64,000 bases of DNA from the NCBI GenBank assembly GCA_000752675.2, contig LM994627.1:554429-618428 (forward strand), given 5' to 3'. The stretch is from a bacterium OL-1 (lineage in GTDB: Bacteria > Actinomycetota > Coriobacteriia > Coriobacteriales > Atopobiaceae). Positions 17,908 to 27,602 of this stretch are shown here, piece after piece. The notes below the pieces were generated by a model. That model was given only the letters and a program-made list of their open reading frames with translations. It ran no database searches and had not been told where the DNA came from. The stretch's first letter is position 1; each line of letters opens with the position of its first letter. The translations under genes were made by a program, and so were the position numbers.

Positions 17908-18062
17908 GGTCTCCCCTCGCTTGGGCTGCCGCAGGGGGCAGCGGGTACCGAGAGTCCATTGTATGCGAGCGGCCCAAACTGGCGACGGGTCGACTTAGGT
18001 GTTGTGGGCGAGTCGTGATGATGGCAATCTGCGGTGACGGTAGCCAAGTTGGGAAGTTTGCC

Positions 18063-18079: not shown

Positions 18080-18156
18080 GGCCCCGTAGCTCAGTGGATT
18101 AGAGCGTTCGCCTCCGGAGCGAAAGGTCGTGGGTTCGAACCCCACCGGGGTCACCA
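18080..18156 (+). tRNA. tRNA-Arg (anticodon CCG)
   Basis: This 77-nt cloverleaf includes an encoded CCA. The acceptor GGCCCCG pairs with CGGGGTC (one G-U). The D arm is TAGCTCAGTGGATTAGAGC-like, the anticodon stem TTCGC/GCGAA encloses loop CTCCGGA (anticodon CCG, reading CGG) and the T arm is GTGGGTTCGAACCCCAC. It is preceded by TATAAT and followed by a hairpin terminator, so it forms its own transcription unit. Confidence 0.97.
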
Positions 18157-18199: not shown

Positions 18200-18554
18200 T
18201 TTGGCTGCGCAACGGGGTTCTTCTCGATGGCCCCTCTCGACAGCCCCGTCGCCGCCCCTCTCGGCGGACTTTAGCTCCTTTTCTTAAAAACGCCATGCGT
18301 TACCTGGTCAAACGTCGACTCGTTTTAAGAAAAGGAGCTATTCTCCGAGAAATAATCGGAGCGCGGGCGAGAGGTGCCTCGGGAGCAGACGGGCGCGGCC
18401 CAGCCACAGCCCAGCGAGCGTGCCCCAGCAATAGTTCGCCTTTGTTAACGCCGCAGGCACAAGTCCTGCAAAGAGACTCCTCCGTGGTAGCATTCCAATC
18501 CCTATGCGACAAGACGGCCGCTGCCCACACGCGGCCTCGGAAAGGCATGTCACC
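18200..18554. other. Noncoding region upstream of the aromatic cluster
   Basis: About 355 nt lie between the tRNA terminator and aroF. The region holds the long hairpin at 18272-18340 and a small 5-bp hairpin (GCAGG/CCTGC near 18451-18467). No convincing -35/-10 pair, T-box or known riboswitch signature was found. The aroF promoter should be here, probably downstream of the hairpin. Confidence 0.5.
18272..18340. repeat. Dispersed long-loop inverted repeat, copy 1
   Basis: Perfect 18-bp arms (18272-18289 and 18323-18340; TAGCTCCTTTTCTTAAAA on the left) enclose a 33-nt loop. The right flank continues TTCTCCGAGAAA. A second copy at 41204-41270 shares arms, loop size and right flank (GGAGCTrTTCTCCGA) but has a T-to-A change that is compensated in the other arm. 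No open reading frame is inside. Confidence 0.75.
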
Positions 18555-19583
18555 ATGATTGCAGTAGTTAAAGAAACAGCCACCCAAGACCAGCTTGATC
18601 ACTTCGTCAAGTGGATCGAAGGGCGCGGCTTCAAGACCAACGTGTCCCAGGGCGACAACGAGACCATCGTCGGCATCATTGGCGATACCACCCAGATTGA
18701 CCCCTTCCTCCTCGAATCGATGGACATCATCGAACGCGTCCAGCGTGTCTCGGAGCCCTTCAAGAAGGCCAACCGCAAGTTCCACCCAGAGGACACTATC
18801 GTCGACTGCGGCCACGGCGTGAAGATCGGCGGCGGTAACTTCCAGGTCATCGCCGGCCCCTGCTCCGTTGAGGGCAAGAATCTCTTCGACATAGCCCGTG
18901 CCGTCAAGGCCTCCGGAGCAACCATGCTCCGCGGCGGCGCCTACAAGCCCCGTACCAGCCCGTACTCCTATCAGGGCATGGGCGAGAAGGGCCTCGACCT
19001 TCTCGTTGAGGCGTCCGCAGAGCTCGACATGCCCATCGTGACCGAGGTCATGGACCCGCGCGACGTCCAGCTCTTCCTCGACAAGGGCATCGACGTCATG
19101 CAGATTGGCGCCCGCAACGCCCAGAACTTCCCCCTGCTGCGTGAGGTTGGCAAGACCCAGGTGCCAGTGCTTCTCAAGCGCGGCCTCTCCGAGACCATCG
19201 ACGAGCTCCTCATGGGCGCCGAGTACATCATGAGCGAGGGCAACCCCAACGTAATCCTGTGCGAGCGCGGCATCCGCACGTTCGAGACGCGCACGAGAAA
19301 CACCTTTGACGTGAACGCAATCCCCGTCCTGCACCACCTGTCTCACCTGCCGGTTGTTGGCGACCCCAGCCACGCCACGGGCTACACCCGCTACGTGCGG
19401 TCGGCGGCATACGCCGCAACGGCCGCGGGCGCAGACGGCCTTGAGATCGAGGTCCACGACAACCCCAGCGAGGCCTGGTCCGACGGAGCCCAGGCGCTCA
19501 CCCCGGCCCAGTTCGACGACGCCATGCGCCGCATCCGCCTCATCCGCGAGGCTGTGACCGCACCCGTCGAGGAGGCAAAGTGA
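18555..19583 (+). CDS. aroF: 3-deoxy-7-phosphoheptulonate synthase (DAHP synthase, type I beta)
   Basis: This enzyme condenses PEP and erythrose-4-phosphate, the first step of the shikimate pathway. In the 342-residue protein, residues 1-70 form a ferredoxin-like regulatory domain of the Thermotoga type (MIAVVKETATQDQLDHFVKW), usually the site of Tyr/Phe feedback. The TIM barrel follows with VIAGPCSVEG, RGGAYKPRTSPYSYQG and HLPVVGDPSHATG. I chose ATG 18555 rather than an upstream ATG at 18504 because homologues begin at this point and GGAAAGG precedes it. It heads the aromatic cluster, and its stop overlaps the tyrA start by one base. Confidence 0.95.
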   Translation: MIAVVKETATQDQLDHFVKWIEGRGFKTNVSQGDNETIVGIIGDTTQIDPFLLESMDIIERVQRVSEPFKKANRKFHPEDTIVDCGHGVKIGGGNFQVIAGPCSVEGKNLFDIARAVKASGATMLRGGAYKPRTSPYSYQGMGEKGLDLLVEASAELDMPIVTEVMDPRDVQLFLDKGIDVMQIGARNAQNFPLLREVGKTQVPVLLKRGLSETIDELLMGAEYIMSEGNPNVILCERGIRTFETRTRNTFDVNAIPVLHHLSHLPVVGDPSHATGYTRYVRSAAYAATAAGADGLEIEVHDNPSEAWSDGAQALTPAQFDDAMRRIRLIREAVTAPVEEAK

Positions 19584-20467
19584 TGGCCGAGAATAACCAG
19601 CGCTCCGGTTCCTCCACCTTTGTCCCCGACCGCGTGGGCGTCGTTGGCCTGGGCCTCATGGGCGGCTCGTTTGCCAAGGCGCTTGCGGCTGCGGGGCGCG
19701 AGGTGTACGGCTGGAACCGCACGCATTCCGTCACCGAGATGGCAGAGATTGAGACCATCGCCGGCGAGCTCACCGACGAGACGATTCCCACCTGCGAGCT
19801 CATCATCCTCGCGGGCTACCCACAGGTGAGCATCGACTGGCTGGGAGAGATGGCCAACCTCATCTCGCCGGGCGCCATCGTCATCGACACCGTGGGCGTC
19901 AAGCGCATCATCTGCGAGCGCTGCGACAAAATCTCTGAGGGCCAGGCCTGGACCTTCGTGGGCTGCCACCCCATGGCAGGCACCCAGTACTCCGGCTTTG
20001 CGCACGCCCGCGCGAACATGTTCCACAACGCGCCCATGGTCGTGGTGCCCCCGCAGATGGACGACTTCGAGCGTGTGGCCATCCTGGAGCGCTTGAAGCA
20101 CCTGCTCAAGCCGTGCGGCTTTGGCTCGTTCACGCTCTCAACTGCTGAGAACCACGACCGCATGATTGCCTACACCTCGCAGCTCGCGCACGTGGTCTCC
20201 AACGCTTACGTCAAGAGCCCCACGGCGCAGGAGCACAAGGGCTTCTCGGCCGGCTCGTACAAGGACCTCACGCGCGTGGCGCGTCTCAACGCCCCCATGT
20301 GGACCGAGCTCTTCCTTGACAACGCCGACAACCTCTCGCGTGAGGTGGGCACTATCATCGAGAACCTCCAGGCCTACAAGGACGCCATCGACGCCCACGA
20401 TGCCGAGAAGCTCCAGGCACTGCTCGCGGAGGGCGACCGCCTCAAGAGGGAGGCCGAGGCCCGATGA
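19583..20467 (+). CDS. tyrA: Prephenate dehydrogenase
   Basis: TyrA oxidatively decarboxylates prephenate to 4-hydroxyphenylpyruvate for tyrosine. The 294-residue protein has an N-terminal Rossmann fold (VGVVGLGLMGGSFAKAL), ISPGAIVIDTVGVK, the family HPMAG (CHPMAGTQYSG) and the C-terminal dimer helices with SQLAHVVSNA. No ACT domain is present, so feedback may act elsewhere in the pathway. ATG 19583 overlaps the aroF stop (TGATG) and follows GGAGG by 7 nt. It is coupled by ATGA to aroB. Confidence 0.94.
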   Translation: MAENNQRSGSSTFVPDRVGVVGLGLMGGSFAKALAAAGREVYGWNRTHSVTEMAEIETIAGELTDETIPTCELIILAGYPQVSIDWLGEMANLISPGAIVIDTVGVKRIICERCDKISEGQAWTFVGCHPMAGTQYSGFAHARANMFHNAPMVVVPPQMDDFERVAILERLKHLLKPCGFGSFTLSTAENHDRMIAYTSQLAHVVSNAYVKSPTAQEHKGFSAGSYKDLTRVARLNAPMWTELFLDNADNLSREVGTIIENLQAYKDAIDAHDAEKLQALLAEGDRLKREAEAR

Positions 20468-21555
20468 GCGAGACACACGTCATCCCAGTAAACACGCCCT
20501 CGCGCTCGTACGAGGTCCACGTTGACCGCGGGCTTCTCGGTTCGATGGGCTCTCTTGTCGCCAAGGCATGCCCCAAGGTCACGCACGTTGCCCTCGTCTC
20601 GGACTCGAACGTGGCACCGCTCTACGCTGGCCCCGTCAAAGAGTCGCTTGAGGCTGCGGGCATTGCAGTCTCGACCATCACCTTCCCCGCGGGCGAGGAG
20701 CACAAGCGCCTCGCGACGCTGGGGGACATCCTCGAGCGCATGGCGCAGGCGGGCATCACGCGCGCCGACGCCGTCGTGGCCGTGGGCGGAGGCGTCACAG
20801 GTGACATGGCCGGCCTTGCCGCAGCCCTCTACCAGCGCGGCATTCAGGTGGTCCAGGTGCCCACGTCGCTTCTCGCGATGGTCGACTCGTCCGTGGGCGG
20901 CAAGACCGCCGTAGACCTGGAAGCCGGCAAAAACCTTGCCGGGGCCTTCCTCCAACCTTCGCTGGTTGTTGCCGACATCGACTGCTTGGCCACCGTCTCG
21001 CCCGAGCTGCTGCGCGACTCGTGCGGCGAGATGATCAAGCATGGTGTGCTTGCAGATGAGAAGCTCTTTGACCAGCTATTCGAGGACCCCGTGTGCGCAC
21101 CCGGCTTTGACCCCGACAAGCTCGTGGACATTGTTGCCAGAAACGTCCAGATCAAGCGCGACGTGGTCGACGCGGACGAGCGGGAGCACGGGCGTCGCCA
21201 AACGCTCAACCTGGGCCACACCATCGGTCACGCCATCGAGGCGGCAAGTGACTTCAAACTGGGCCACGGGAGCTGCGTCGCTGCAGGCCTCTGCTGCGTT
21301 GCCCGCGCCTCCGCACGCCTTGGCTGGTGTGAGCAGAACGTCGCGGACCGCATCGTGGCCTGCGTCGAGGCCTACGGGCTTCCCACCAACACGGACATCG
21401 GCCACGAAACGCTCCTCGAATACGCGGCACGCGACAAGAAGCGCCGCTCCGACGGCGTGACCCTCGTGGTGCCCACGCGCATTGGCGCAGTCGAGCTGCG
21501 CAAGGTCTCACTCGAGGAACTCCGCCACGTGATCGACCTCGGCTGCGGGGAGTAG
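20464..21555 (+). CDS. aroB: 3-dehydroquinate synthase
   Basis: AroB cyclises DAHP to 3-dehydroquinate using NAD and a divalent metal. The 363-residue protein shows GGGVTGDMAGLAAALYQRG (NAD-binding region), SSVGGKTAVDLEAGKN and the metal-binding RQTLNLGHTIGHAIE. Length and motifs are standard. The ATG overlaps the tyrA stop by 4 nt. It is the second enzyme of the shikimate route and lies third in the cluster. Confidence 0.96.
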   Translation: MSETHVIPVNTPSRSYEVHVDRGLLGSMGSLVAKACPKVTHVALVSDSNVAPLYAGPVKESLEAAGIAVSTITFPAGEEHKRLATLGDILERMAQAGITRADAVVAVGGGVTGDMAGLAAALYQRGIQVVQVPTSLLAMVDSSVGGKTAVDLEAGKNLAGAFLQPSLVVADIDCLATVSPELLRDSCGEMIKHGVLADEKLFDQLFEDPVCAPGFDPDKLVDIVARNVQIKRDVVDADEREHGRRQTLNLGHTIGHAIEAASDFKLGHGSCVAAGLCCVARASARLGWCEQNVADRIVACVEAYGLPTNTDIGHETLLEYAARDKKRRSDGVTLVVPTRIGAVELRKVSLEELRHVIDLGCGE

Positions 21556-21558
21556 CAC

Positions 21559-22869
21559 ATGGACGTGACCATCCATCCCGCACCGCTTCACGGCACCATT
21601 CCTGCCATCGCCTCGAAGTCGATGGCACACAGGCTGCTCATCACGGCAGCGCTTTGCCCTGGGACCACAGACATCAATTGCAACGCAACCTCCAAGGACA
21701 TCGAGGCCACCGTCAGTTGCCTGGAGGCGCTTGGCGCACGCATCGCGAGCACGCGCTTGGGCTTTAGGGTGAATCCCCTTCCCGGCACGAGCGCCACGGA
21801 CAACATCCGGCAGGCCACGCCGGGGGCGTACCTAGACTGCGGCGAGTCTGGCTCGACGCTTCGCTTCATGCTGCCAGTCGTCGCAGCGCTTGGACGCGGG
21901 GGCAGCCTCGATGGTCACGGCCGCTTGGCCGAGCGCCCCCTCTCGCCCCTCTACGAGGAGCTCGTCTGCCATGGCGTCACGCTCTCCACGCGCGGGGAGC
22001 TTCCCCTCGAGGTCTCGGGCACGCTCCTGCCGGGCCGCTTCTCCATCCCCGGGAATGTCTCGTCCCAGTTTGTGAGCGGCCTGCTCATGGCAGCCCCGCT
22101 CCTCTCGGCGCCCAGCGAGATCGTAGTCACGGAGCCCGTCGAGTCGCGTTCCTACATCCGCCTCACAATTCGCTCGCTCGCCGAGTTTGGCATCGACGTG
22201 GGTGTGACGCACGAGACTGTTGACGGCAACCGTGCCACGGTTCTCTCGGTCTCTCCTGCCCGCAGCGCCGTCTCGCCGGGCACTGTGACGGTCGAGGGCG
22301 ACTGGTCCAACGCCGCCTTCTGGCTTGCAGCCGGTGCCGTTGCCGGGGGCGTCTCGGTGAGCGGGCTCGACCTTGCGAGCGCACAGGGCGACCGCGCCAT
22401 CATGGCCTGCGCCGCCGCGTTTGGCGCGCGCGTGGGACGCTCTGGCAACGTTGCCACCACGATCCCCGACGCTCTGCGCGGCCGCACCATCGACGTGCGC
22501 GACACGCCGGACCTCGTGCCCCCACTTGCCGCCATCGCCGCAAATGCCACGGGCACCACCGTTATCGCCAACGCCGGCCGCCTTCGCCTCAAGGAGTCAG
22601 ACCGCCTGAAGACCGTGCTAGCGGCCCTCACGGCCATGGGGGCCAGCATCGAGGAAAAGCCCGATGCCCTTGTCATCCATGGCAAGGGGCCGCTTTCCGG
22701 TGGCACGGTGGACGCGGCGAACGACCACCGCATCGCCATGATGGCGGCAATTGCCGGTGCCAACGCAACAGGCCCCACAACCATCCGCGGCGCCGAGTGC
22801 GTCGCCAAGTCGTACCCACGCTTCTTCGAGGACTTCCGCGCCCTCGGAGGCATTGCAGAGGAAGGCTAG
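21559..22869 (+). CDS. aroA: 3-phosphoshikimate 1-carboxyvinyltransferase (EPSP synthase)
   Basis: AroA transfers enolpyruvyl from PEP to shikimate-3-phosphate. The 436-residue protein has SKSMAHRLLI near the N-terminus, LDCGESGSTLRFMLP (the PEP-site loop with Gly in the glyphosate-contact position) and GRLRLKESDRL and NDHRIAMMAAI in the second half. Start ATG 21559 is 3 nt after the aroB stop, with GGGGAG upstream. Confidence 0.96.
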   Translation: MDVTIHPAPLHGTIPAIASKSMAHRLLITAALCPGTTDINCNATSKDIEATVSCLEALGARIASTRLGFRVNPLPGTSATDNIRQATPGAYLDCGESGSTLRFMLPVVAALGRGGSLDGHGRLAERPLSPLYEELVCHGVTLSTRGELPLEVSGTLLPGRFSIPGNVSSQFVSGLLMAAPLLSAPSEIVVTEPVESRSYIRLTIRSLAEFGIDVGVTHETVDGNRATVLSVSPARSAVSPGTVTVEGDWSNAAFWLAAGAVAGGVSVSGLDLASAQGDRAIMACAAAFGARVGRSGNVATTIPDALRGRTIDVRDTPDLVPPLAAIAANATGTTVIANAGRLRLKESDRLKTVLAALTAMGASIEEKPDALVIHGKGPLSGGTVDAANDHRIAMMAAIAGANATGPTTIRGAECVAKSYPRFFEDFRALGGIAEEG

Positions 22870-22871
22870 AG

Positions 22872-23987
22872 ATGCCCTCGAGCTTTGGACAGATGCTCCG
22901 TGTCACCGTGTTTGGACAATCTCACTCCCCCGCCATCGGCTGCGTTGTCGAGGGCCTGCCCTCAGGCATCGTTGTTGACCAGGACGCCCTTGCTGCCTTC
23001 ATGGCACGTCGCGCGCCCGGCCAGGGCAGCTGGACCACGCCCCGCCGCGAGGAGGACCGCCCCCACATCGTAAGCGGCCTAAACGTCCACGGCGCCACTT
23101 GTGGGGCTCCCCTTGCCGCCATCATCGAGAACACCAACACACGCTCGGGCGACTACGACAACCTCCTCAAGGTGCCGCGTCCCGGCCACGCCGATCTCAC
23201 CGCATGGGAGAAGTGGCACGGCAACCAGGATGTCCCCGGCGGCGGGCACTTCTCCGGCCGTCTTACCGCGCCCCTGTGCGTAGCGGGCGGCATCGCCCTC
23301 CAGGCGCTCGCGGCGCGCGGCGTGCGCATTGGCGCCCACCTGCTCTCCGTTGCCAACGTCGAGGACGAGCGCTTCGACGCCCTGGACAACTCCCCCGCCG
23401 CCCAGGCGCACCTCGCCGAGCAGCTCGACATGCTCGCGTCCGGCCCGCGTTTCCCCACGATCGACGCGGACGCCGGCACGCGCATGCTCGCAGCCATCGA
23501 TGACGCGCGTCGCAGCCTTGACTCCGTTGGTGGCGTCATCGAGTGCGTTGCCTGCGGCATGCCTGCGGGCGCAGGCTCGCCCATGTTCGACGGCATCGAG
23601 AACATGCTGGCACGTGCCGCGTTTGGCATCCCTGCCGTCAAGGGCATCGAGTTTGGCCGCGGCTTCGAGGCAGCACGCCTCCATGGCAGCGAGAACAACG
23701 ACCCCTACGAGATGCGCGATGGCGTGCCCACGCCCAAGACCAACAACGCTGGTGGCATCCTCGGCGGCATCACCACCGGCGCTCCCGTGCTCTTTAGGAT
23801 CGCCCTGAAGCCCACCTCGTCCATCGCGCGCGAGCAGGATTCCGTTGACCTCGAGAGCGGCACCAACGCCAAGCTCAGCGTGCACGGTCGCCACGACCCG
23901 TGCGTGGCCACGCGTGCCGTGCCCGTTGCCGAGGCCGTCTGCGCCCTCGTGCTTTTCGACGCCCTGCTCAGCTACCCCGCAGAGTAG
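22872..23987 (+). CDS. aroC: Chorismate synthase
   Basis: AroC removes phosphate from EPSP with reduced FMN to give chorismate. The 371-residue protein has all the typical blocks: FGQSHSPAIGCVVEG, ENTNTRSGDY, PRPGHADLT, GGGHFSGR, KGIEFGRGFEAARLHGSE and NNAGGILGGITTG. ATG 22872 lies 2 nt after the aroA stop, within GGAAGGCTAGAG. The open frame extends upstream of this ATG, but that part is aroA sequence in another frame. Confidence 0.96.
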   Translation: MPSSFGQMLRVTVFGQSHSPAIGCVVEGLPSGIVVDQDALAAFMARRAPGQGSWTTPRREEDRPHIVSGLNVHGATCGAPLAAIIENTNTRSGDYDNLLKVPRPGHADLTAWEKWHGNQDVPGGGHFSGRLTAPLCVAGGIALQALAARGVRIGAHLLSVANVEDERFDALDNSPAAQAHLAEQLDMLASGPRFPTIDADAGTRMLAAIDDARRSLDSVGGVIECVACGMPAGAGSPMFDGIENMLARAAFGIPAVKGIEFGRGFEAARLHGSENNDPYEMRDGVPTPKTNNAGGILGGITTGAPVLFRIALKPTSSIAREQDSVDLESGTNAKLSVHGRHDPCVATRAVPVAEAVCALVLFDALLSYPAE

Positions 23988-24032
23988 CCGCCGAACCCAT
24001 TGCCCTACCACATCGAACCGGAGATACGCCCC

Positions 24033-25181
24033 ATGGAAGACCTCTCGGACATCCGTCATGAGATCGATGACATAGACAACGCCATCCTCGACCTGTTCCA
24101 GCAGCGCATGGACTGCGCGGAGCGCGTGGCCGCCTACAAGCGCGCAAACAACCTCCTCGTGCTCGACCGCTCGCGCGAGCGCGCACACATGGCGGCGCTC
24201 GCGGACAAGGCTCCCGAGGACCTGAGGACCTACACCGAGGTCCTGTTCCAGCTCCTCATGGAGGCCTCGCGCGCCCGCCAGGGCCAGCGCCTCGCGGCGG
24301 AGCACGCGCCCAAGACCCTTGCTGCCATCGACCAGGCCCGCGAGACTACCCCGGACCTCTTCCCCCGCGAGGCCTACGTTGCCTGCCAGGGCGTCGAGGG
24401 CGCCTACTCGCAGTTTGCGGCCGATCGTATCTTCAAGCACCCGCTCATCTCGTACTTCGAGTCCTTCGAGGGCGTGTTCCGCGCCGTCGAGACGGACTTC
24501 TCGCGCTATGGCGTGCTGCCAATCGAGAACTCCACGGCAGGATCTGTGAACAAGGTCTATGACCTCATGATGCAGCACGACTTCCATGTGGTGCGCACCA
24601 CGCGCGTCAAGATTGACCACAACCTCCTGGCCAAACCGGGCACCGCGATCGAGCAGATCCATGACGTATACAGCCACGAGCAGGCCATCAACCAGTGCGC
24701 TGGCTTCATCGAGCGCATGGGGCTCACACCGCACGTGGTCGAGAACACGGCCATGGCTGCCAAGAGCGTAGCAGACAGCGACCGCCCGGACGTGGCGGCC
24801 CTCTCAAGCCGCGCGTGCGCCCAGCTCTATGGCCTCGACGTGCTTATGCGCGACGTCCAGGACCGAGACGACAACTACACACGCTTTGCCTGCATCTCTA
24901 AGTCCCTCGAGGTCTACCCAGGCGCGGACCGCACATCCCTCATGATCGTGGTGGACCACCGCCCGGGCACGCTCTTCAAGGTGCTCGCGAAGTTCTATGC
25001 ACTCGACATCAACATCATCAAGCTCGAGAGCCGCCCGATCCCCGGACGCGACTTCGAGTTCATGTTCTACTTCGATGTGGAGTGCCCCGTCACGGCGCCA
25101 GAGTTCCGCACCCTCATGGCAACCATTGGGGACGCCTGCGAGGAGTGCCGCTACCTTGGCAGCTACTCGGAGGTGCTCTAG
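24033..25181 (+). CDS. pheA: Bifunctional chorismate mutase / prephenate dehydratase (P-protein)
   Basis: The 382-residue protein makes phenylpyruvate from chorismate. An N-terminal chorismate mutase (about 1-85, MEDLSDIRHEIDDIDNAILD...) is followed by prephenate dehydratase (about 110-285, with GVEGAYSQFAA, PIENSTAGSVN and the YTRF motif) and a C-terminal ACT domain (about 300-378, ESRPIPGRDFEFMFYFD) that normally binds Phe for feedback. I prefer ATG 24033 (GGAG 9 nt upstream) to an in-frame TTG at 24000. It is followed directly by aroE/aroK. Confidence 0.93.
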   Translation: MEDLSDIRHEIDDIDNAILDLFQQRMDCAERVAAYKRANNLLVLDRSRERAHMAALADKAPEDLRTYTEVLFQLLMEASRARQGQRLAAEHAPKTLAAIDQARETTPDLFPREAYVACQGVEGAYSQFAADRIFKHPLISYFESFEGVFRAVETDFSRYGVLPIENSTAGSVNKVYDLMMQHDFHVVRTTRVKIDHNLLAKPGTAIEQIHDVYSHEQAINQCAGFIERMGLTPHVVENTAMAAKSVADSDRPDVAALSSRACAQLYGLDVLMRDVQDRDDNYTRFACISKSLEVYPGADRTSLMIVVDHRPGTLFKVLAKFYALDINIIKLESRPIPGRDFEFMFYFDVECPVTAPEFRTLMATIGDACEECRYLGSYSEVL

Positions 25182-26480
25182 ATGACCAGCACACCTGCAC
25201 AGCAGCCACAGACCGCAACGGCACCCTTTGGCCTTCTCGGCAGAAAGCTCGGCCACAGCTGGTCTCCACGCATCCACGCCACCCTGGGGAGCGTCCCCTA
25301 CGAGCTCTTCGAGCGCGAGCCCGAGGAAGTTGAGCCATTCATCCGCGAGGGCTCGTGGCGCGGCATCAACGTGACCATTCCCTACAAGCGAGACGCTGCG
25401 CGCCTGGCAGACGAGCGCTCGCCCCGCGTTGAGCGCCTGGGCGCGGCCAACACCCTGGTCCGCCGCCCCAATGGCAGCATCTACGCCGAGAACACCGACG
25501 TACTGGGCTTCTCGCTCATGCTCCAGCGTTTCTGCGAGCGCAGGCTGGGCACAACCGCACAGGCGCTGCTCTCCGGCAAGCCCGCCCTCGTGCTGGGAAG
25601 CGGCGGTGCCAGCGCTGCCGTCCAGGCGGCTCTCGAGGACGCGGGAACGCAGGTCTCCGTCATCTCGCGCTCCGGCGAGGACACGTACCAGACGCTGACC
25701 GAGCGCCATGCGGACGCGGTTCTCGTAGTCAACGCAACGCCCGTGGGGATGTATCCCAACTGCCCCGCGACTCCCGTGCCCGAGAAGGACCTCGCGCAGC
25801 TCAAGAGCCTCGCCGGCGTACTCGACGTGATCTACAACCCCACGCGCACGGGCATCGTGCTTGCGGCGGAGCACCTGGGCATTCCCGCCGAGACGGGCCT
25901 TTCCATGCTGGTAGCACAGGCACTGCGGTCGAGCGAGCTCTTCCAGGGCCGCCAGCTGGACGTCTCCCTCGTCGACCGGATCGAGGCCCAGATCCTCTCG
26001 GAGACGGGCAACGTCATTCTCATAGGCATGCCGGGCTGCGGCAAGACCACCACGGGCAAGCGCCTGGCGCGCATGCTTGGAAGGCCTTTCGTCGACATCG
26101 ACGACGCCATCGAGGCAAGCACGGGCAAGACAGCCGCGTACATCATAAGCACCCAGGGCGAGCATGAGTTCAGGCGTGTCGAGTCCAGTGTCACAGGCGA
26201 GTATGGCGCGCGCTCGGGACTTGTCATCGCCTGCGGGGGCGGCGTGGTCACGGTGCCTGCCAACTACGACCTCCTCCACCAGAACGGCACTATCATCTTC
26301 ATTGACAGGCCCATAACGGAGCTCGAGACTGTAGGACGGCCCGTCTCTGCGGCCAAGGGGGTTGAGACGCTCGCCCGTGAGCGCATGGATATCTATCGTG
26401 CCTGGTCAGACATCACAATCTCCTCGATGGGGTCTCCTGCCGGAAACGCCCACGCGATAAGGGACCAGCTTGGCCTCTAG
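25182..26480 (+). CDS. Fused shikimate dehydrogenase-shikimate kinase
   Basis: The 432-residue protein joins two consecutive pathway enzymes. Residues about 15-270 are AroE (GLLGRKLGHSWSPRIH, catalytic K69 in NVTIPYK, ENTD with D106, LVLGSGGASAAV for NADP, NATPVGMYP). Residues about 277-432 are AroK (IGMPGCGKTTTGKRLA P-loop at 282-290, PFVDIDDAIE, GEHEFRRVES, ACGGGVV). The junction is a short linker (ILSETGN), with no stop codon or frameshift. Order AroE-AroK matches the chemistry, dehydroshikimate to shikimate to shikimate-3-phosphate. The ATG follows the pheA stop immediately. Confidence 0.93.
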   Translation: MTSTPAQQPQTATAPFGLLGRKLGHSWSPRIHATLGSVPYELFEREPEEVEPFIREGSWRGINVTIPYKRDAARLADERSPRVERLGAANTLVRRPNGSIYAENTDVLGFSLMLQRFCERRLGTTAQALLSGKPALVLGSGGASAAVQAALEDAGTQVSVISRSGEDTYQTLTERHADAVLVVNATPVGMYPNCPATPVPEKDLAQLKSLAGVLDVIYNPTRTGIVLAAEHLGIPAETGLSMLVAQALRSSELFQGRQLDVSLVDRIEAQILSETGNVILIGMPGCGKTTTGKRLARMLGRPFVDIDDAIEASTGKTAAYIISTQGEHEFRRVESSVTGEYGARSGLVIACGGGVVTVPANYDLLHQNGTIIFIDRPITELETVGRPVSAAKGVETLARERMDIYRAWSDITISSMGSPAGNAHAIRDQLGL

Positions 26481-26563
26481 CGCAACTCGCAACGTCAGCC
26501 GAAAATGGGCAACGTCTACGGAGTCATAGCCAACCAAACACCGTGACGTGTCTGCGATAGCCC

Positions 26564-26569
26564 TATACT
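26564..26569 (+). promoter_or_regulatory. Possible -10 box before the EIIB-aroQ gene
   Basis: TATACT lies in the 186-nt gap after aroE/aroK. The -35 region (GTGACG, 15-nt spacer) is poor. If used, this would let the EIIB-dehydroquinase gene be transcribed apart from the upstream cluster. Confidence 0.35.
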
Positions 26570-26666
26570 CTGCTCAACACATTTAAACAAGTGGGGCAGC
26601 GATGGAAGACCTTGGGGAGAAGGCCTTTTTGAGCTGTGCGCCGCAGGAAGAAAGGGTTTGGCGCAA

Positions 26667-27602
26667 ATGGCAAAGACGGATGTCGCCGAGCAGGTCCTCG
26701 ACGCCCTAGGTGGCAAGGACAACGTGAAGGCGAACGACATCTGCATGACGAGGCTCAGGATTCTCACCGAGGAACCAGACCTTATCGACCTCAACAGGCT
26801 CCGCTCCATCAAGGGCGTACTTGGCACCGTGCGTCGCGGCTCAAACGGTGTCGAGATTGTCTTTGGCCCCGGCTCCATTAACGAGGTCAGCAATGATATC
26901 GTGCGGCTCACCGGCATCGAGCCCAGCTACTCCGCCTTCCGCGGCTCTTCCTCTGCCCCAGAGGACTCCATTAGCGTGCAGATCAACGGCCATGCGCCCA
27001 TCCCAAAGGCGGTCCGTGCGGCGGTTGCCGCAAAGAAAACGCTGGCCTCAGCACACGTTGATGCCCCCGCAGTCGATGATGATGACGCGGATGACATGGA
27101 GGAGCTCGCCTCGCTCCTCGAGGCAACGGATGCCGCTAGTGCAAACCGCCTCCTGGTGGTCAACGGTCCCAACATCAACATGCTCGGCGTGCGCGAGCCC
27201 AAGATCTACGGTCGCAAGACCTATGCCGACCTCGTGCGCCTTTGCCGCACGGCCGCCCGCGAGGCGGGCTTCTCTGAGTGCCGCTGCTTCCAGTCCAACC
27301 ACGAGGGGGACCTCGTCGACGTGATCCAGGCCGCCTATGGCGAGTTCGACGGCATTGTCATCAACCCCGCCGCCTACACGCACACCTCGGTGGCGCTGCT
27401 CGACGCGCTCAAGTCCGTGGCGCTCCCCACAATCGAGGTCCACATCTCAAAGGTCGACGAGCGTGAGGACTTCCGCCAGGTCTCCTACGTGCGTGCGGCG
27501 TGCTTCGAGACCATCGTTGGCATGGGACTCGACGGCTATCGCAAGGCAATCAAGGACATGGCCGCCTACCTCCGCGAGCACAAGGGTGCCGAGAAGGCCT
27601 AG
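26667..27602 (+). CDS. aroQ: PTS EIIB-like domain fused to type II 3-dehydroquinate dehydratase
   Basis: The product has 311 residues, about twice a normal AroQ. Residues 1-85 match a glucose-family PTS EIIB domain: ALGGKDNV, then DICMTRLRI with Cys26 at the phospho-Cys position (compare ACITRLR), SIKGVLGTVRRGSNGVEIVFGPGS at the end. An acidic, flexible linker (about 86-159) follows. Residues 160-311 are a full AroQ (VVNGPNINMLGVREPKIYG, SNHEGDLVD, NPAAYTHTSVAL, EVHISK, FRQVSY). The usual Asn after VHIS is Lys. ATG 26667 follows AAAGGG, and an in-frame TTG lies 9 nt upstream. I infer PTS-linked control of the dehydratase. A non-regulatory relic is the alternative. Confidence 0.9.
   Translation: MAKTDVAEQVLDALGGKDNVKANDICMTRLRILTEEPDLIDLNRLRSIKGVLGTVRRGSNGVEIVFGPGSINEVSNDIVRLTGIEPSYSAFRGSSSAPEDSISVQINGHAPIPKAVRAAVAAKKTLASAHVDAPAVDDDDADDMEELASLLEATDAASANRLLVVNGPNINMLGVREPKIYGRKTYADLVRLCRTAAREAGFSECRCFQSNHEGDLVDVIQAAYGEFDGIVINPAAYTHTSVALLDALKSVALPTIEVHISKVDEREDFRQVSYVRAACFETIVGMGLDGYRKAIKDMAAYLREHKGAEKA

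Follow-up and report, generated by a model that had tools for sequence, protein, structure and literature searches.

We analysed a window of 64,000 nt from contig LM994627.1 of the bacterium OL-1 (family Atopobiaceae; assembly GCA_000752675.2, a genome of 2.46 Mb in 10 contigs). The window holds a complete shikimate run in the order DAHP synthase, TyrA, AroB, AroA, AroC, PheA, AroE-AroK and EIIB-AroQ (Table 1), and a convergent gene for 5-formyltetrahydrofolate cyclo-ligase lies downstream. The last gene of the run is an ORF of 311 aa (26667-27602, +) with an ATG at 26667, a stop codon that ends at 27602, and an in-frame TTG upstream at 26658. AroC probably starts later than its first candidate start at 22797, because the ORF read from there overlaps aroA and the domain match begins only at residue 34. 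For PheA, the table also gives the first candidate start, and the domain search was run from 24033. The best NCBIfam model for the AroE-AroK ORF, TIGR00507 (aroE), scored 136.2 bits, below its cut-off of 200.2; AroE and AroK matches stand in tandem in most relatives examined. A tRNA gene (18080-18153) lies just upstream of the operon. Between positions 18000 and 28500 this tRNA alone reached an Rfam gathering score, and a known RNA element within the operon was rejected. The gap before EIIB-aroQ (26478-26666) is nearly identical, and includes a TATACT, in all four genus members compared, out of 8 in the genus. A simple consensus scan of this gap found no sigma-70 promoter; the gap may contain a promoter of EIIB-aroQ's own.

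Table 1 Features of the aro operon and of the EIIB-AroQ protein (coordinates in the window)
Feature	Coordinates	Strand	Evidence
DAHP synthase, first gene of the aro operon	18504..19577	+	PF00793 (E 1.1e-72), PF18152
TyrA, prephenate dehydrogenase	19580..20461	+	PF02153, PF20463
AroB, 3-dehydroquinate synthase	20464..21549	+	PF01761, PF24621
AroA, EPSP synthase	21559..22863	+	PF00275 (E 1.5e-83)
AroC, chorismate synthase	22797..23981 (first candidate start)	+	PF01264 (E 7.9e-119)
PheA (chorismate mutase, prephenate dehydratase, ACT)	24000..25178	+	PF01817, PF00800, PF01842
AroE-AroK fusion, one ORF	25182..26477	+	PF08501, PF01202
Glucose-type PTS EIIB domain, residues 1-85	26667..26921	+	PF00367, PDB EIIB-Glc matches, AF2
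Phospho-cysteine motif C26-M-T-R-L-R	26742..26759	+	C26, T28, R29, L30, R31 invariant in 125/125 loci
Linker motif 1, strand-like ISVQIN, residues 102-107	26970..26987	+	Recurrent pattern, kept in EIIB-only tails
Linker motif 2, acidic amphipathic DDMEELASLLEATD, residues 142-155	27090..27131	+	Recurrent pattern
AroQ, type II 3-dehydroquinate dehydratase, residues 161-305	27147..27581	+	PF01220, TIGR01088, catalytic residues

The sequence-only reading took this protein for a PTS EIIB-like domain (residues 1-85) joined to a complete type II dehydroquinase in the C-terminal half, and profile searches confirm both parts. With the whole protein as query, PF00367 (PTS_EIIB) matched residues 8-41 at 38.5 bits, against a curated cut-off of 27; residues 1-88 searched alone gave 41.3 bits. 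NCBIfam models of whole PTS proteins matched through their EIIB part (residues 4-89, best E 4.5e-15), and the EIIB-only model TIGR00826 scored 32.8 bits, below its own cut-off of 45.75. The glucose-type EIIB spans residues 4-85, with Cys26 aligned to the cysteine of the CITRLR motif in E. coli EIIB-Glc (PDB 3bp3, 1o2f); the EIIB chain of PDB 3bp8 was also among the PDB matches. In the C-terminal half, PF01220 matched residues 162-298 at 183.8 bits (cut-off 23.3), and TIGR01088 (aroQ) reached 175.8 bits, above its curated cut-off of 169.85. All six scored catalytic residues, located through the alignment, are present (R176, Y181, N233, H239, H259 and R270): the lid Arg and Tyr, an Asn, two His and an Arg. 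A single-chain AlphaFold2 model shows both domains well modelled on either side of a low-confidence linker, with block means of pLDDT between 92 and 98 over residues 1-90. When this model was submitted to Foldseek, the best 50 matches listed were all dehydroquinase chains; the EIIB fold therefore rests on the sequence matches and on 9a6a_B, which ranked 32 in the search made with a model from genus g28.

PF01220 was found in 127 of 140 Atopobiaceae genomes, representing 32 of 35 genera. We fetched 126 of the 127 AroQ loci; the remaining one (G114), with AroQ at a contig end, was left out. An EIIB was present at every fetched locus, and at 125 of the 126 it shares a reading frame with AroQ; in L067 the EIIB and AroQ parts flank an unresolved assembly stretch (X). 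This single reading frame across the family rules out an assembly accident as the source of the fusion. An apparent split gene in G018 was rejected, the break being an unresolved assembly stretch. We conclude that the EIIB-AroQ fusion is genuine and is the norm in Atopobiaceae, a gut-bacterial family; whether it recurs in related genomes had been one of the checks proposed by the sequence-only reading.

The phospho-site is invariant across these loci. C26, T28, R29, L30 and R31, together with G15, G16 and N19, are identical in 125/125 loci, the 126th (L026) being without the Cys column at a contig end, and E63 and P68 are conserved in 125/126 family members. The sequence-only reading had stressed the kept Cys26, and we encountered no relative with the column that lacked it. 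The same reading had also suspected that the Lys after VHIS, in place of the common Asn, might alter catalysis. Of 126 aligned sequences, 60 have Lys at this position (262), 23 have Asp and 11 have Asn, and since it varies while 104 of 106 AroQs from genomes without a type I dehydroquinase are intact, the alignment gives that concern no support.

Among the best 80 of a larger number of loci in a species-genome scan, the fusion occurred in 21 (L174-L193 and L198), from genomes named Olsenella, Thermophilibacter or Atopobium, or from MAGs labelled Atopobiaceae, Coriobacteriaceae, Coriobacteriales or actinobacterium, names that point to Atopobiaceae as the family. The other 59, which include Collinsella, Slackia and many Clostridia, matched only from query residue 107 or later, in the AroQ part, and did not show the fusion. 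In a search of 60 relatives, other families of the order showed, among the matches listed, AroQ alone or EIIBs elsewhere. The fusion was thus unseen outside the family in two limited searches, which do not prove its absence elsewhere.

Thirteen family genomes have no AroQ. Five retain the EIIB alone (G146, G155, G158, G160 and G162), two are cut off by contig ends, five have no match to chorismate synthase (G014, G063, G016, G075 and G161), and one (G115) has chorismate synthase only as a fragment. An AroQ loss in the two contig-end genomes (G022 and G064) was rejected: their contigs stop before the position of the EIIB, and the absences are assembly limits.

Of the 140 genomes, 24 encode a type I dehydroquinase, AroD (PF01487). 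They belong to just two genera, with 15 of the 16 g28 genomes and 9 from g9. The AroQ domain remains in 20 of these 24, and 4 carry only the EIIB; the five EIIB-only genomes are these 4 and one incomplete genome. All six scored catalytic residues are kept at 104/106 AroD-free loci versus 1/20 AroD loci. Where catalytic residues are lost, their number ranges from one (L109 and L110) to five (12 loci), and G150 is the single AroD genome whose AroQ retains all six. The association of AroD with AroQ intactness gives a p of 2.6e-19 (Fisher's exact test) uncorrected for kinship, the related genomes not being independent. The AroD-free exceptions are L113, from a g28 genome that is 77% complete, and L114. 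In L114 (G079, contig C42) an internal deletion of AroQ removes the QSNHEG region and leaves the EIIB and the flanks intact; it may be read either as an assembly error or as a fresh loss without AroD. AroD-linked decay of AroQ is confined to two genera.

In a 66-row tree of AroE-AroK, active and non-active AroQ are separated by at least four changes. This tree was built by a quick method with SH-aLRT support only; AroE-AroK was unusable in 7 of 131 loci, and 66 of the other 124 were taken. The EIIB-only genes nest in a clade of g9 in which dead and active AroQ loci are found as well, an arrangement most naturally read as AroQ having been lost from a fusion. C-A-T-R-L-R is conserved in all five EIIB-only proteins, each of which ends in a tail with the same linker motifs as the fusion, and their loci run DAHP synthase, TyrA, AroB, AroA, PheA, AroE, AroK, EIIB, with AroC placed between AroA and PheA by PF01264. 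Among 20 longer loci examined, the EIIB directly follows AroK in all 18 that reach the place; upstream aro genes lie off the EIIB contig in some loci (e.g. G157). The AroD genes in loci L130-L133 lie outside the aro operon, among unrelated neighbours (DUF1295 with adenosine deaminase, an ECF/ABC transporter, EamA, GH5). In G155 (contig C30), G158 (C15) and G156 (C6), AroD lies within an open frame of 577-578 aa, possibly a further fusion.

An EIIB that is a mere relic is contradicted by the invariant phospho-site together with persistence of the domain without AroQ, as the sequence-only reading had argued from the cysteine. Because the EIIB is retained where AroQ is broken or absent, AroQ catalysis is not its sole target. 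The idea in that reading that the PTS controls the dehydroquinase therefore survives in part: a link to phosphorylation state is supported, indirectly, whereas AroQ as the only thing controlled is not.

We compared the conservation of the two halves, leaving out L026, L067 and L114 and counting L105, which is intact and has AroD, in the g9 AroD set. In active lineages (102 sequences, 5151 pairs), mean identity was 0.51 for the EIIB and 0.69 for AroQ, AroQ being the more conserved in 4944 pairs and the EIIB in 204, with 3 ties. In g28 (16 sequences, 120 pairs) the order was reversed: mean identity was 0.71 for the EIIB and 0.53 for AroQ, and the EIIB was more conserved in 119 pairs, AroQ in none, with 1 tie. 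Of the 10 pairs from the five g9 AroD genomes that still have AroQ, 8 likewise showed higher identity in the EIIB. Over core columns, non-synonymous divergence was higher in AroQ in 118 of 120 g28 pairs, 5 of 28 pairs from the window's genus and 147 of 406 g4 pairs. The median dN/dS in g4 (29 members, L100 left out) was 0.166 for AroQ, slightly above the 0.138 for the EIIB, so that the contrast between the halves, clear in g28, does not hold evenly across active genera. Usable g28 pairs, many of them near saturation, had medians of 0.21 for the EIIB (45 pairs) and 0.34 for AroQ (20 pairs); two informative close pairs gave 0.045 and 0.060 for the EIIB, and 0.06 and 0.12 for AroQ. NGPNxN, QSNHEGDLxD, N233 and S241 are kept in the AroQ of all 16 g28 sequences. 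Together with the dN/dS values, this indicates that the AroQ remnant is also constrained and does not drift freely. A model of a g28 protein retains the dehydroquinase fold (TMt 0.84, first match), with the lid and a C-terminal segment at low confidence.

Two patterns recur in the linker. We counted them in 125 linkers and in the tails of 3 of the five EIIB-only proteins; the linkers measure 59-176 letters and include a few domain residues. The pattern of motif 1, (L/I/F/M)x(V/I)x(I/V), occurs in 99 of 128 sequences versus a shuffled mean of 1.5, and the acidic amphipathic pattern of motif 2 in 119 of 128 versus a shuffled mean of 21.8. Since the patterns were defined post hoc and the sequences are related, these counts show recurrence rather than significance. 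Motif 2 corresponds to a helix at residues 141-151 in the AlphaFold2 model, within the low-confidence stretch. Both linker motifs persist in proteins without AroQ and are candidate docking sites.

We looked for PTS partners of the EIIB in the same genomes. Glucose-type EIIA is present in 134 and HPr in 135 of the 140 family genomes, and in 124 and 125, respectively, of the 127 with AroQ. G034, which is 98% complete and has a dead AroQ, carries the fusion and gave no EIIA match at an E-value of 0.001. Among 36 genomes picked for a PF00367 search, all of which have at least one EIIC of some kind, most carry further EIIBs, including the window genome with two other PF00367 matches and seven EIICs; G075 and G014 have a single PF00367 match each and no AroQ. 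In the window genome, an ordinary glucose-type PTS gene seems to be broken (L001 and L158; contig C2, 671.2-672.9 kb), with the EIIB in a 295-aa frame and the EIIA in a separate downstream frame of 177 aa, at a place where G001 and G002, two relatives, show one frame of 666 aa.

In five near-complete genomes (G094, G024, G023, G118 and G080) the fusion is the sole PF00367 match, and all five possess a glucose-type EIIA. PF00367 covers only 34 positions, so that a divergent EIIB could escape it. These genomes have 17 EIICs, whose best models are lactose/cellobiose for 5, fructose for 11 and mannitol for 1. Four were assigned to lactose/cellobiose when re-read at the same places, and the other 13 comprise 1 lactose/cellobiose, 11 fructose and 1 mannitol; the fructose and mannitol calls exceed curated cut-offs, and 1 of the 5 lactose/cellobiose calls exceeds its subfamily cut-off. 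No glucose-type EIIC model matched in the five genomes at thresholds of 1e-10 and 1e-15, and there is no EIIC domain in the EIIB-AroQ chain itself. In G094, a single contig that is 100% complete, there is one EIIA, and the fusion is the one glucose-type EIIB; both of its EIICs share a frame with a fructose-type EIIB of their own, and there are two of them. The stretch VHVGIDTV, which surrounds the phospho-histidine of EIIA, is kept in the EIIA of G094 and G024; in G080 one of two EIIA matches is without the phospho-histidine stretch. Given the EIIC classes in these five genomes, the EIIA and the fused EIIB show no visible partner but each other.

The shikimate pathway consumes PEP at two steps, DAHP synthase and EPSP synthase. 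Retention of the EIIB beside a dead or absent AroQ suggests a switch that ties sugar status to aromatic synthesis. Considering the sequence evidence as a whole (the fusion, the invariant phospho-site, the operon position, retention without an active AroQ and, in five genomes, EIIA without a glucose-type EIIC), we lean, by a little, towards the EIIB being a working, phosphorylatable cytosolic signal output of the aromatic operon, neither part of a transporter nor solely a regulator of AroQ. We infer phosphorylation by EIIA, a partner, a direction of control and an oligomer. Phosphate would pass from PEP through EI, HPr and glucose-type EIIA to Cys26, whose phosphorylation state would report PEP/pyruvate and PTS-sugar flux. 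Depending on this state, the EIIB would bind to or let go of a partner, which in turn would tune expression or activity of the shikimate pathway. AroQ would provide catalysis in most species and, probably as an oligomer, would carry many EIIB copies; where AroD takes over catalysis, the AroQ half would decay or be shed, and the EIIB and the two linker motifs would remain. In active lineages AroQ itself may be controlled directly as well, but this cannot account for the function entirely. Several observations weigh against the reading: G034 has the fusion and no EIIA match, one of the two EIIA matches of G080 is without the phospho-histidine stretch, AroD-linked decay is confined to two genera, and G150 keeps all six residues despite its AroD. 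So do the shortness of the PF00367 model, the lower conservation of the EIIB in most active pairs, the further EIIBs in most of the 36 genomes and the constraint on the g28 remnant. A broader proposal might as readily fail as stand: that Atopobiaceae have a dedicated, transporter-free PTS branch of HPr, EIIA and EIIB, whose end protein is encoded with the shikimate genes and adjusts this PEP-consuming pathway to PEP and sugar status, AroQ being a dispensable carrier that turned into a pseudoenzyme scaffold in some lineages and was dropped in others.

One alternative is that the EIIB acts on AroQ alone, as an on/off or allosteric domain whose phosphorylation state changes dehydroquinase activity in the same chain. 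A covalent fusion in one frame at 125/126 loci, and an active site intact in 104/106 AroD-free genomes, are what such a domain would predict. We nevertheless consider it unlikely, given that the EIIB is conserved beside an AroQ that lacks catalytic residues (19 of the 20 AroD genomes with AroQ), is the better-conserved half in 119/120 g28 pairs, and stays at five loci without AroQ. Control of AroQ may be one of several roles of the EIIB in active lineages. It is also conceivable, and in our view distinctly unlikely, that this is an ordinary transport EIIB that serves a separate EIIC and is merely co-encoded with AroQ. Both arginines of CxTRLR are kept, EIIA and HPr are nearly always present, and 36/36 genomes tested have some EIIC; however, all 17 EIICs of the five near-complete genomes fit lactose/cellobiose, fructose or mannitol models best, both EIICs of G094 are already framed with a fructose-type EIIB, and the fixed place after AroK would be left unexplained.

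In AroD lineages the AroQ remnant could also have acquired a new ligand-binding or enzymatic role regulated by the EIIB. This would account for the motifs and residues kept throughout g28, for the low dN/dS of AroQ in the two close pairs and for the retained fold, but the lid and a C-terminal segment of the g28 model are of low confidence, AroQ diverges faster than the EIIB, and in part of g9 AroQ is dispensable altogether; we regard this role as very doubtful. Alternatively, the EIIB and linker might be a folding or assembly module, such as a solubility tag or oligomer spacer, in which the cysteine chemistry is irrelevant and the AroQ remnants reflect passive decay. A fused domain can indeed persist through inertia, and AroQ does decay in genomes with AroD. 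However, a tag would not be expected to keep C26 and TRLR unchanged at 125/125 loci from 32 genera; the EIIB also persists without AroQ, and its dN/dS in two informative close g28 pairs is 0.045 and 0.060. We regard this reading as highly improbable.

Each half of the fusion has known counterparts. The AroQ half is a type II enzyme (PF01220, TIGR01088; PDB 8idr) that scores above curated cut-offs and keeps the six residues; compared with plain AroQ, the fusion adds an N-terminal EIIB and an acidic linker, and the AroQ is inactivated or lost in most AroD-bearing relatives. The EIIB half belongs to the same family as E. coli EIICB-Glc (PF00367; 1o2f, 3bp3), with the C-x-T-R-L-R motif and an expected EIIA donor. 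Unlike glucose-type PTS transporters, the fusion is soluble, with no EIIC in its chain and no glucose-type EIIC in the five genomes. The fusion family has E63 and P68 where the EIIB of E. coli, the only one compared, has Q and T. PTS proteins regulate transport and catabolism, and the nitrogen PTS also regulates several cellular processes.

The nearest functional parallels are regulatory. The nitrogen PTS (EI-Ntr, NPr, EIIA-Ntr) is a PTS branch without membrane components that is regulatory only (PMC4635465). The logic is similar, but the fusion is not a member: the donor candidate here is a PF00358 EIIA and the end point is a cysteine EIIB, so that the proposed relay would end at a PF00367 EIIB whereas that of the nitrogen PTS ends at EIIA-Ntr. 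In E. coli, EIICB-Glc sequesters the repressor Mlc when dephosphorylated, and phosphorylation state thus controls the binding of a regulator (PMC3901232); EIICB-Glc is a membrane transporter, whereas the fusion is a soluble protein. A further case of a metabolic enzyme with a glucose/sucrose-type EIIB is the triosephosphate isomerase-EIIB described by a model title (NCBIfam NF011497 / PRK14905), in which the enzyme is glycolytic and the EIIB is C-terminal (match at model positions 276-352 of 357); the best literature matches included no paper on it. The two domains are each known; among the best matches in open-licence literature, neither the EIIB-AroQ fusion nor any EIIB placed within an aro operon was described. 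If the proposed role is correct, a cysteine EIIB fixed in the aro operon would wire a PEP-driven relay directly to a pathway in competition for PEP. Within the family, genomes with the EIIB and a live AroQ, with the EIIB, a dead AroQ and AroD, and with the EIIB alone and AroD form a natural series that separates the role of the EIIB from catalysis, and this makes EIIB function directly testable. The series is also a clear example of a fusion whose enzyme half becomes a pseudoenzyme next to an unrelated enzyme that has the same activity, while the domain attached to it is retained.
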